NCBI GenBank assembly: GCA_021824385.1
Contig: JAKAKU010000099.1
Span: 1-9,895, forward strand
DNA: 9,895 nucleotides
Direction of reading: 5' to 3'
Source: a bacterium
GTDB taxonomy: Bacteria; Patescibacteriota; Microgenomatia; UBA8517
Below are positions 1,588-5,806 of this stretch, piece after piece. The position numbers and the translations under genes are program-made. Numbering within the stretch: the first letter of the stretch is position 1; each line of letters opens with the position of its first letter. The notes below the pieces were generated by a model. That model was not told the DNA's origin. It did not search any database and saw only the letters and a program-made list of their open reading frames with translations.

Positions 1588-3810
1588 ATGCAGAACTTCT
1601 CAACTCCCATGATGAAGCAGTATGAAGAGATAAAAAAAAGGTATCCCGATTGTTTGCTTTTTTTTCGTCTCGGAGACTTTTATGAACTCTTCCTCGATGA
1701 TGCAAAAATCGGTTCGGAAATATTGGGAATTACTCTCACAGGACGACCGAAAGGCAAAGACGGCAGAATTCCCATGGCGGGGGTGCCTTACCACGCCGTC
1801 GACGGGTACCTTCATAAACTCGTAAAAGCCGGATACAAAGTGGCCATTTGCGAGCAGCTGTCTGAGCCCGATAAAAAAGGCATTGTTGAGAGAGACGTAA
1901 TTCGAGTAGTAACTCCAGGGACAATTCTTGACGAGCGCGCACTCGAAAAAAAAACACACAATTATATTCTTTCCCTTTTGGTCGAAAAAAATAGTATTGC
2001 ACTTTCATTGGCCGACTTTTCAACAGGGCAACTTCAAACTGAGGAATACTTTACAGAAAATTGGCAGGAGCTCTTGAGAGACGAGCTTATCAAAACAAAT
2101 CCAACTGAATGTATCTTGCCAGATTCTCTGTATAACGATCCAGAGGTATTGAAAATATTAAAAACAGTTCCTAATATCACCATATTTCTCTTTCCCGAGT
2201 GGCAGTCTTCTACAACCTACGCCAAAAAGGAGCTTATGGCACACTTTGGAGTAAAAACACTCGAAGCATTTCAAATTGAGAACAAGCCTCTTGCACAAAA
2301 GACCTGCAATGCACTGCTTTCGTATCTGAAGTTAACGCAAAAAAACAACCTTCCTCACATAAATAGTATTGTCCTTTTGCCTTCAAACGAGTTTGTTCTC
2401 CTCGACCGGGCAACAATCATTAACTTGGAGTTGTTTTCTACAATTCGTGAACAAAATACCAAGGGAAGTCTCCTCGCTGCCATCGATTACACACACACCG
2501 CCATGGGTGGACGACTTCTCAAAGACTGGCTGGTGCACCCCTTAAAATCGAAAAAGAATATTGAAAGCAGACTCAATGCAGCTGACGAACTTATTGAAAA
2601 CAAGGCACTTGCCGTGTCTCTCCAAAAATTGCTCACTGAAATTACCGATATCGAACGAACATTCTCTCGAGTAAGTGTGGGAATTGGAAACGCGAGAGAT
2701 CTAAAAGCACTCTCACATGCCCTGGAGTTGGTTATTTCATTAAAACACAACCTCGTTTCTGCAAATTCGTCTTTTTTGACTAAAGCACAAAAAGAAATTT
2801 CCCCAAAAATTACCACACTGGCAAAAAACATCGAAGAGACTCTTACCGAGGATCCCCCCATTCAACTAAAAGAAGGAGGACTTATTCGTGACGGAGTTGA
2901 TAAAACGGTCGACGAACTTCGTCAGGTAGTTATGAGTGGAAGAAGTTGGGTTGCCAAACTTGAAGCAAAGGAACGCGCACAAACCGGTATTGGTTCACTC
3001 AAAATTCGCTACAACCAAGTGTTTGGCTATTTTATTGAAGTGAGTAAATCAAATTTATCAGCAGTTCCTTCCCATTATTTTCGCAAACAAACACTGGTAA
3101 ACGGCGAGCGCTTTATTACAGAAGAACTCAAAGAGAGAGAAGAGACAATACTTAAAGCAGAAGAGCTTCTTAAATCTCGAGAATATGAGCTCTATAAAAT
3201 ACTCCTTTCTGAAGTGGTGAGTTACGCCCCGCTCATTCAAAAAGCGGCCGAGTCCGTTGCCAAAATTGACTGTATTGCTTCAATTGCCATATGTGCGAAA
3301 ACACATCGATATTCACGACCCAAAATTGTATATTCTCACGAACTCGTTATAAAAGACGGCAGACACCCCGTCGTTGAACAAGTTATTTCTCAAACTCACT
3401 TTGTTCCCAATAGCACTCATATTGGAAGCCCCAAACAGTCAATTATGCTGCTCACGGGCCCGAATATGGCGGGTAAATCGGTCTACTTGCGACAAGTCGC
3501 AGTGATCACATTACTTGCTCATATTGGTTCGTTTGTTCCAGCCAAAAGTGCATACATACCAATAGTGGATAGTATTTTTGTTCGAAGTGGTGCGAGTGAC
3601 ATGATTTCATCAGGCTTATCGACGTTCATGGTGGAGATGGTTGAGACTGCTTTTATATTAAACCATGCGACAAGCAAAAGCCTTATTATTATGGATGAAA
3701 TTGGACGTGGAACGAGCACCTACGACGGTGTCAGCATTGCCTGGGCTGTCGCAGAGTACCTTATGGAACACGTAAATCCCTCACCCAAAACGCTTTTTGC
3801 AACCCACTAG
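1588..3810 (+). CDS. mutS: DNA mismatch-repair ATPase MutS, ended early by an in-frame TAG at codon 741
   Basis: MutS recognises mismatches and small loops, then recruits MutL using ATP. The N-terminal mismatch-binding domain carries the Phe-x-Glu wedge as GDFYELF (F31, E33). The connector and lever/clamp domains follow. The ATPase has Walker A GPNMAGKS (624-631), the STFMVEM segment, and Walker B LIIMDE (699-704) followed by IGRGTSTYDG. The reading frame then reaches FATH (737-740) and stops at TAG, where the family has Tyr in FATHYHEL. The frame continues without a gap for 114 more codons to 4155. The 740-residue product would lack the end of the ATPase domain and the helical dimerisation region; the intact length would be about 855, as expected. 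The 5' part contains A8, T8 and A9 runs. There is no Shine-Dalgarno, and the promoter lies just upstream. Either the gene is a recent nonsense mutant, or the stop is read through or is a sequence error. Confidence 0.95.
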   Translation: MQNFSTPMMKQYEEIKKRYPDCLLFFRLGDFYELFLDDAKIGSEILGITLTGRPKGKDGRIPMAGVPYHAVDGYLHKLVKAGYKVAICEQLSEPDKKGIVERDVIRVVTPGTILDERALEKKTHNYILSLLVEKNSIALSLADFSTGQLQTEEYFTENWQELLRDELIKTNPTECILPDSLYNDPEVLKILKTVPNITIFLFPEWQSSTTYAKKELMAHFGVKTLEAFQIENKPLAQKTCNALLSYLKLTQKNNLPHINSIVLLPSNEFVLLDRATIINLELFSTIREQNTKGSLLAAIDYTHTAMGGRLLKDWLVHPLKSKKNIESRLNAADELIENKALAVSLQKLLTEITDIERTFSRVSVGIGNARDLKALSHALELVISLKHNLVSANSSFLTKAQKEISPKITTLAKNIEETLTEDPPIQLKEGGLIRDGVDKTVDELRQVVMSGRSWVAKLEAKERAQTGIGSLKIRYNQVFGYFIEVSKSNLSAVPSHYFRKQTLVNGERFITEELKEREETILKAEELLKSREYELYKILLSEVVSYAPLIQKAAESVAKIDCIASIAICAKTHRYSRPKIVYSHELVIKDGRHPVVEQVISQTHFVPNSTHIGSPKQSIMLLTGPNMAGKSVYLRQVAVITLLAHIGSFVPAKSAYIPIVDSIFVRSGASDMISSGLSTFMVEMVETAFILNHATSKSLIIMDEIGRGTSTYDGVSIAWAVAEYLMEHVNPSPKTLFATH
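3808..3810 (+). other. mutS: In-frame amber codon interrupting mutS
   Basis: Codons around this point read Ala-Thr-His-TAG-His-Glu-Leu. In MutS proteins the position is a conserved aromatic, usually Tyr (TAC or TAT), which is one base from TAG. The frame, composition and conservation are uninterrupted on both sides, so a single substitution explains it and no frameshift is needed. Confidence 0.9.
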
Positions 3811-4155
3811 CATGAGCTTATCTACTTAGAAAAAAAGTACCCAAATAAACTTAAAAATGCTCACATGAATGTTTCACACCAAGGAAGTGAACCCGTTTTC
3901 ACGCATTCTTTGGTTCACGGACCAGCCTATGAAAGCTACGGGGTCGACGTTGCAAAATTGGCGGGAGTACCTACTTCTGTAGTTGCACGAGCCAACGTCC
4001 TCTTAAAAGAACTCCACAAAACTCAGTCTGCTGTAGTTATTCCCGACAAACAAAACAATAGCCTTTTAACAGAGATTACCAATATTGATATAAACAACAC
4101 AACGCCAGTTGAGGCTTTTCAAATTCTTTCAAAGTTAAAACAAAAATATGAATAA
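3811..4155 (+). pseudogene. mutS: C-terminal remainder of mutS downstream of the amber codon
   Basis: These 114 codons are in the same frame as the upstream MutS and finish the protein. They begin HELIYLEKKYPN, then KNAHMNV, then the highly conserved ESYGVDVAKLAGVP segment and the helical tail VVARANVLLKEL that belongs to the MutS C-terminal dimer contact. The only later ATG is at 3865, within KNAHMNV, with no Shine-Dalgarno, so independent translation is unlikely to give a working protein. No further lesions are visible, which fits a very recent disruption or a readthrough product. The stop TAA overlaps the start of mutL by 8 bp. Confidence 0.85.
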
Positions 4156-5806
4156 AATTGTTCAACTATCAGAAGAAACAATTGCAAAAATTGCCGCCGG
4201 AGAAGTAATTGAGCGGCCATCATACGCGGTTAAAGAACTCGTTGAAAACGCGATAGACGCAAAACCCACCCATATCGATGTCATAATTGTGGACAGTGGC
4301 CTAACAGAAATTACCGTTGTAGACGATGGCGTTGGCATGTCGAAAGAAGATCTGCAAATGGCACTGCTTCCCCATACAACCAGTAAGATCAGAGATTCAA
4401 GCGAATTGACAACGGTTTCAACCCTCGGTTTCAGAGGTGAAGGGCTATCGAGCTTGGTTGCAATTTCAGATATCTCACTGTCTTCACGGCCCAAAAACTC
4501 GGCTGTTGGACACAGTATCGAATCAGTAAATGCATCTATTCAATCAATTAAACAAATCGGGATGGCGACAGGAACCAGAATAAGTGCATACAAACTAATG
4601 AACAACTTGCCAGCACGGAAGAAATTCTTGAAAAGCGAACGAACAGAATTCCGGCACATTGTTGAATACATTTTAGAGGTTTCTTTAAGCTTCCCCTCCA
4701 TTTATTTCACTCTTACTCACAACAACAAAAAAATAGTAGATATTGGTGGAAATACAACATCTCGAATTTCAGAAATTTTTGGGGAGAGTGTCGCAGCACG
4801 CATTATGTCTCGATCTTTTAAAAACAGCATTACTTCTGTAGATCTCAATATTGGTCATCCAGAAAACGCGCTTCCGTCCAAAAACAAACTTTATATTTAT
4901 ATAAACAATCGCCCGGTTTCTGATCCAGTTGTTGCCGCTGCTATAAAAGAGGCATACGGAAAACTTTTAGATCCTTATTCATATCCCGTCGGTGCTGTTT
5001 TTGTTTCAATTCCATCACAATTTGTAGACGTAAACGTACACCCCACCAAACGCGAGGTCAGATTTGAAAGTGCAGAGTATATTTTCCAAGAAATTCTTGA
5101 GAATACTCGAGAACTCCTCGGGAGTTACAACCTTACCTTTGGATCACAAAACGTGCATGCAACAAACCGTGAAATAGCTTCCGACTTACGAGCTGACGTT
5201 TCAAAATTGCCCATTTCACATATTCTTGATGATACGCTCTCAGATGAGCTCATTATTATAGACAACACATACATTATTACCCCCCACAAAGATGGCCTCA
5301 TATTGTTTGACCAGCATGCTGCACACGAGGCGCTGTTGTACGAAGCTTTCAGTAAGTCATTTCTCAAACACAAAACCGAAAGCATTGAGCTTGCAGCCCC
5401 TATTCTGATACCTCTCACCAAGACTCAAATGCTTGAGTTTGAAGAGCATGGTGAAGTTTTTCATAAAATGGGCTTCAAAATAGACATCTTTGGAGGAAAT
5501 ACCGTCAAAGTTTCGGCTATTCCAAAACTTGCTAACGAGCATGATATTGCTGGGCATATTGCCGAAATTTTGGAATATGTGAGCTCATCCCACTACCCTG
5601 ATATCGACCACATAAATAACAAAATGATTGCATTTTTGTCATGTAAGTCGGCTATTAAAGCGGGCGACAAACTTTCAAAAACTGAAGCCTTCAAAATTAT
5701 TCACGCCTTAAACGAAAGCAATTCAGTTTATACCTGTCCACACGGAAGGCCTGTTAAGCGTATTGTGAGTGTCCGTGATCTACAGAAAATGTTCAAACGA
5801 GTGTAA
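4148..5806 (+). CDS. mutL: DNA mismatch-repair protein MutL with endonuclease motif
   Basis: MutL links mismatch recognition by MutS to strand incision. The N-terminal GHKL ATPase shows E29/N34 in KELVENAIDA, DDGVGM (59-64), TSKI (78-81) and GFRGEGLSS (94-102). Transducer-domain motifs are NNRPV (253-257) and DVNVHPTKREVRF (294-306). The C-terminal domain carries the metal-binding endonuclease motif DQHAxxExxxxE (388-399), SCKSAIKAG (498-506) and CPHGRP (530-535), as in bacteria without MutH. At 552 residues it is shorter than Bacillus and E. coli MutL, mainly through a short linker (about 325-355). The beta-clamp-binding motif near PILIP (418-422) lacks its usual Gln. The ATG overlaps the mutS stop (ATGAATAA), and there is no Shine-Dalgarno, so translational coupling to mutS is inferred. 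All catalytic motifs are intact. Confidence 0.97.
   Translation: MNKIVQLSEETIAKIAAGEVIERPSYAVKELVENAIDAKPTHIDVIIVDSGLTEITVVDDGVGMSKEDLQMALLPHTTSKIRDSSELTTVSTLGFRGEGLSSLVAISDISLSSRPKNSAVGHSIESVNASIQSIKQIGMATGTRISAYKLMNNLPARKKFLKSERTEFRHIVEYILEVSLSFPSIYFTLTHNNKKIVDIGGNTTSRISEIFGESVAARIMSRSFKNSITSVDLNIGHPENALPSKNKLYIYINNRPVSDPVVAAAIKEAYGKLLDPYSYPVGAVFVSIPSQFVDVNVHPTKREVRFESAEYIFQEILENTRELLGSYNLTFGSQNVHATNREIASDLRADVSKLPISHILDDTLSDELIIIDNTYIITPHKDGLILFDQHAAHEALLYEAFSKSFLKHKTESIELAAPILIPLTKTQMLEFEEHGEVFHKMGFKIDIFGGNTVKVSAIPKLANEHDIAGHIAEILEYVSSSHYPDIDHINNKMIAFLSCKSAIKAGDKLSKTEAFKIIHALNESNSVYTCPHGRPVKRIVSVRDLQKMFKRV

Follow-up and report, generated by a model that had tools for sequence, protein, structure and literature searches.

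The mutS gene of a draft Microgenomatia genome carries an amber codon at a position where its relatives encode a tyrosine, which raises the question of whether this lineage is losing mismatch repair, still reads the codon as an amino acid, or appears interrupted through an error in the consensus. The 9,895-nucleotide stretch analysed here (the window) is contig C142 of this draft (G000), which comprises 926,600 bases in 148 contigs and is 67.9% complete. The mutS frame extends from 1588 to 4155 on the plus strand and reads ...FATH-TAG-HELIYLEK... around the lesion; its own terminator is the TAA at 4153-4155, and the only other in-frame stop found before it is the TAG at 3808-3810, codon 741 of 855. 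The part preceding this stop (1588-3807, 740 codons) encodes domains I-IV and most of the ATPase domain V, and the remainder (3811-4155, 114 codons plus the TAA) is open and holds the end of domain V. In terms of Pfam families, MutS_I, II, III and IV and positions 1-119 of the 188 of MutS_V lie upstream of the TAG; since MutS_V positions 121-187 continue downstream in the same frame, the two flanking parts are free of any frameshift between them. The preliminary description of this locus, an amber codon in an otherwise intact mutS with conserved sequence on both sides, is thus borne out by the frame and by its Pfam domains.

The pre-stop part alone matches the bacterial MutS1 model TIGR01070 over positions 2-713 of 840 with 824.8 bits, and the whole frame scores 911.7 bits (cut-off 641.7). 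A MutS1 gene is expected to encode domains I-V, with a complete ATPase domain, in a single open frame and to have a mutL partner. Here, the TAG splits domain V between profile positions 119 and 121, and the mutL partner is intact (4148-5806, plus strand, 552 codons). The ATG of mutL overlaps the end of the mutS frame by 8 bases; the same 8-base overlap occurs in G001, a genome of the same genus (mutS ORF to 7088 of L166, mutL match from 7081), and in G002 the mutL start likewise precedes the mutS end. Elsewhere in the window, a 104-aa minus-strand ORF (713-1027) consists mostly of Pro, Ala, Thr, Met and Glu repeats and matches no NCBIfam family, and an 80-aa ORF lies opposite to it on the plus strand.

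The amber codon falls in a nearly invariant column, which is occupied by Tyr in 355 of the 356 homologues that span it, the single exception being a Phe (P0343). The first two protein searches contributed 240 aligned sequences, of which 238 span the site, all with Tyr, and 2 fall short of it; the third contributed 119 examined sequences, 118 of them spanning, with Tyr in 117 and the one Phe. The named sources of the near relatives are Levyibacteriota, Microgenomates, Patescibacteria, Woesebacteria and Roizmanbacteria, which points to a Patescibacteria (CPR) genome, and the farther ones belong to other phyla. In the DNA of relatives, the codon following the motif is TAC in 44 cases and TAT in 29, with four other codons seen once each (raw matches of a simple pattern scan). 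A single substitution is enough to turn either Tyr codon into TAG, as previously proposed; this simplicity would also suit an error. Aligned to 7ai6 and counted by eye, the column corresponds to Y729 of E. coli MutS, immediately after H728. We therefore agree with the earlier claim that a conserved Tyr of the MutS ATPase has been replaced. The alignment to solved MutS chains also accords with the further claim that the end of the ATPase and the dimer contact are missing; the function of the short protein is a prediction from sequence. As to the dimer contact, PMC4521584 places the hinge of the helix-turn-helix (HTH) domains at 765-766 and states, citing Biswas et al., that these domains stabilise MutS dimers.

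In our view, held with somewhat better than even confidence, the TAG at 3808-3810 most probably arose very recently as a nonsense mutation, and its predicted outcome is loss of MutS function and of mismatch repair. The product would stop after 740 of 855 codons, just past the His that aligns with H728 of E. coli, and would be devoid of the rest of the ATPase fold and of the helix-turn-helix dimer region. Because both are missing, the short MutS should not form a working dimer. Moreover, with the start of mutL lying in the last mutS codons, 337 bases past the TAG, its translational coupling to mutS would probably be weakened as well. Once mismatch repair is disabled, the mutation rate would rise. 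The site shows no sign of the mismatch-repair switch that the preliminary description had also envisaged: the change is confined to a single codon, with no repeat or insertion in the frame.

To judge how old the stop is, we compared branch lengths before and after it. On a fixed tree, the branch leading to the MutS of the window measures 0.0999 for residues 481-740 and 0.3209 for residues 742-855 (ratio 3.2), and that of P0121, the closest intact relative spanning the site in that tree, measures 0.1005 and 0.3338 (ratio 3.3). The downstream/upstream ratios of four other intact relatives range from 2.2 to 6.9. In relative-rate comparisons of the window with P0121, the unique downstream changes number 9 vs 3 with P0003 as outgroup and 8 vs 2 with P0004 (chi-square 3.0 and 3.6, respectively, both under 3.84), and 7 vs 9, 5 vs 4 and 3 vs 5 with P0002, P0005 and P0007. 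The 114 post-stop codons thus exhibit no clear acceleration relative to intact relatives, and for this reason the stop should be very recent, suppressed, or an error. The same observation is what a truly intact gene with a miscalled base would give, and a part of the gene that still looks constrained is also what suppression of the stop would predict.

We then asked whether TAG is read as an amino acid in this organism. Of 339 terminated ORFs of at least 150 aa (71 contigs, 487,297 bases of G000), TAA closes 192, TGA 91 and TAG 56. The gene for release factor RF1 is present in the draft, although cut by a contig end (C61:4238-4486, starting at 4238), and is full in G001, where it encodes 232 aa (L210:11661-12359). 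It should be noted that the RF1 of G001 is short: the RF1 model matches only from position 111, and the N-terminal part is missing. Many RF1-type matches begin at about position 105-114 and lie in open frames of some 230-260 aa, and in none of 56 genomes (this one and relatives) does a match reach the cut-off of the RF1 model. No CTA anticodon was found among the 47 tRNA matches of this 67.9%-complete draft, one of which has no readable anticodon; ARAGORN assigned 45 of the 47, and one contig-edge fragment was read by eye as CCA. The match with no readable anticodon is a tRNA-like sequence (L126:436-505; G000:C80:3135-3204, minus strand) that scores 53.5 bits with the tRNA model and in which ARAGORN finds no standard anticodon loop. 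ARAGORN also reads a tRNA-Ser with anticodon ACT (L102:2055-2140; G000:C57:4458-4542), located beside a tRNA-Ser GCT on the same contig.

A recoded lineage would have lost RF1 and would use TAG rarely as a terminator and frequently inside genes. Neither is the case here, and we rejected a recoded genetic code on the strength of the 56 of 339 ORFs that end in TAG and of the alignment of 269 ORFs described below, in which no further TAG-interrupted gene was judged real. Suppression of this one codon, whereby a suppressor tRNA, recoding or leaky termination would still deliver full-length MutS, is unlikely in our view. It could draw on the missing third of the genome, on the C80 sequence devoid of a standard anticodon loop and on the short RF1 of the genus, but TAG is a regular terminator, the RF1 gene is present, none of the tRNAs read (45 by ARAGORN and the contig-edge fragment by eye) has CTA and no other gene in the aligned sample was judged to be truly interrupted by TAG. 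The programmed or suppressed readthrough put forward in the preliminary description therefore finds no support in this genome, 68% complete as it is, and the amber-suppressor tRNA (CUA anticodon) whose search it had advised does not occur among the readable tRNAs of the draft. A more specific version, in which the amber codon acts as a leaky rheostat, appears very improbable: with RF1 shortened by its N-terminal part, some ribosomes would read through, and the lineage, rather than giving up repair altogether, would retain full-length MutS and the coupled MutL at a low and adjustable level.

The two parts of the gene might also act without readthrough. An in-frame ATG at 3865 opens 96 codons within the post-stop part (3865-4155, plus strand), for which the protein database has an entry of its own (P0243), and neither part has further lesions; the 740-codon protein, alone or together with a product restarted at this ATG, could then work as a split or shortened MutS. 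We regard this as highly unlikely, since the restart product would lack the 18 codons right after the stop, the short form would lack the dimer region, and no such split gene was seen among 94 mutS genes over the model cut-off. One apparently split mutS, in G109, was dropped as an N-run scaffold gap.

To see whether the assembly is faulty in general, we counted lesions in a sample of the genome. ORFs of G001 were aligned to the same 487,297 bases of G000, giving 269 ORFs at no less than 40% identity (80,869 aa). Eight of them show a stop, and mutS alone was judged by eye to have a gene-interior stop in a real gene. The others were set aside by eye, five with stops at the alignment end (g1_107, g1_393, g1_501, g1_520 and g1_540) and two that look like non-gene ORFs (two stops in g1_364 and three in g1_951). 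When the comparison was reversed (255 ORFs, 76,939 aa), seven rows had stops, and none was judged a real interior lesion: in g0_69, g0_193, g0_244, g0_319 and g0_347 they lie near the alignment end, and g0_294 (four stops) and g0_459 (two stops) were set aside by eye as doubtful. The G000 sample also yielded one candidate +1 frameshift, located in a short run of A within a gene judged RodZ-like by eye (L190; G000:C146, about 4015, minus strand); the 255 ORFs of the reverse comparison yielded none. Either a mutator that has acquired another lesion or a flawed consensus would account for it.

As 4.55% of single substitutions create a stop, the 80,869 codons compared should contain about 1.1 false nonsense codons at an error rate of 1e-4 per base and 0.11 at 1e-5; for mutS itself, the expectation at 1e-5 is 0.001. 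The lesion counts are thus compatible with sequencing error without requiring it. The main and serious rival of a recent allele is a mistake in the consensus or the assembly, or else a minority strain variant that entered the consensus while most cells keep an intact mutS; we give it a substantial chance that nevertheless falls clearly short of even. The fragmentation and incompleteness of the draft speak for it, as do the two lesions of the G000 sample, a nonsense codon and a frameshift, vs no lesion judged real in the reverse comparison, and the expectation of about one false stop at the higher error rate. Against it stand the low expectations at the lower rate and the 269 aligned ORFs, which gave no second interior nonsense codon considered real. 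Phage records, viral contigs and protein searches yielded no further copy of the TAG allele; the protein searches returned pieces of the contig itself (P0001, P0243) and P0044, the most similar sequence, which is 91% identical and ends before the site. A literature search of open-licence PMC papers found no report of this allele.

The comparison with relatives' mutS genes, which the preliminary description had recommended, shows how rare the gene is around this genome. Of the 33 genomes of the family, three have a member of the MutS ATPase family (MutS_V), namely G000, G001 and G002, and mutS1 exceeds the TIGR01070 cut-off in 22 of 373 genomes of the class and 75 of 379 of the phylum; the two scans share G000, G044 and G134, leaving 94 distinct mutS genes. 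The genomes of relatives searched measure 0.6-1.5 Mb. None of these genes other than that of G000 has an interior stop (1 of 94). Stops in the mutS of G441, G388, G634, G630 and G584 are natural gene ends and were dropped. In G338, a run of T close to codon 30 carries a +1 (L216:1233-1316), possibly a real frameshift and possibly an error. The clearest case of decay is G159, a genome of the same class that is 97% complete and has an intact uvrA: its mutS remnant, below the cut-off, consists of seven aligned pieces with frame changes and four stops, and its mutL is in two frames (L214:1690-5901). A mutL match over the cut-off occurs in all 23 class genomes with mutS or a remnant (the 22 over the cut-off and G159).

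As a yardstick, we used uvrA, which is present in 22 of the 23 mutS genomes with no stop among the matches listed (those unlisted are weaker than E 3.5e-4); G002 has weak matches only, and the uvrA of G338 lies on two contigs. In a broader comparison, one of the 150 best matches listed (counted by hand) has a stop, in G364. Broken mutS genes in the class (G000, G159 and G338; 3 of 23) vs broken uvrA genes (0 of 22) give a one-sided p of 0.12; the excess is suggestive only and not significant.

Taken together, a real allele is favoured by the Tyr in 355 of 356 homologues, by a stop that is the sole interior one judged real in 269 ORFs and the sole interior one in 94 mutS genes, and by a genome in which TAG is a normal terminator, the RF1 gene is present and no CTA tRNA was seen. 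It is weakened by the false stop expected at 1e-4 errors per base, by the fragmented draft, the C146 frameshift and the single copy of the allele, and by the p value above. That the allele reflects loss of mismatch repair is favoured by the rarity of MutS (3 of 33 genomes in the family, 22 of 373 in the class) and by the decayed mutS and split mutL of G159. The recent natural mutator or population variant suggested in the preliminary description is thus compatible with what was tested and is our best reading, with the loss of function predicted from the gene's sequence. The lineage is likely at an early step of losing mismatch repair, a system absent from most sampled members of its family.

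Such an allele resembles natural mutS loss-of-function isolates, for example hypermutable Pseudomonas aeruginosa (PMC4199492 and others), in that an inactivating mutS change occurs in a genome otherwise apparently in order and a mutator phenotype would follow; whereas the phenotype was studied in those isolates, the present case is known from the draft genome of an uncultured lineage alone. In Vibrio splendidus 12B01 (PMC5296598), mutS is also interrupted and mismatch repair would be lost, but there the excision of a mobile element toggles the gene, and here a single codon is changed, with no element or repeat in the frame. Among reduced genomes, PMC8406219 reports no evidence of MutS or MutL in Saccharibacteria, and the small-genome review PMC4285135 links repair-gene loss to genome reduction; a reduced-genome lineage without working MutS would resemble these, except that genes are absent or reported lost there, whereas in the present genome both genes persist, mutS with a single lesion. 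Another review (PMC10221324) states that CPR retain mismatch-repair genes. The closest parallel is G159, with the same operon in the same class and mutS broken, yet with numerous stops and changes of frame and with mutL split, as opposed to one stop and an intact mutL in the window.

Should the stop prove erroneous, it is a commonplace flaw of assembly. If it is real, the nonsense allele is a known kind of mutation that would be a useful case, provided that it lies near the first step of mismatch-repair loss: mismatch repair would have been caught near the moment of its loss, in a reduced-genome lineage most of whose sampled relatives have no MutS. Together with G159, it would give a graded series, from intact genes through one stop and rubble to absence, in which one could ask whether the loss of mismatch repair precedes or follows genome change.
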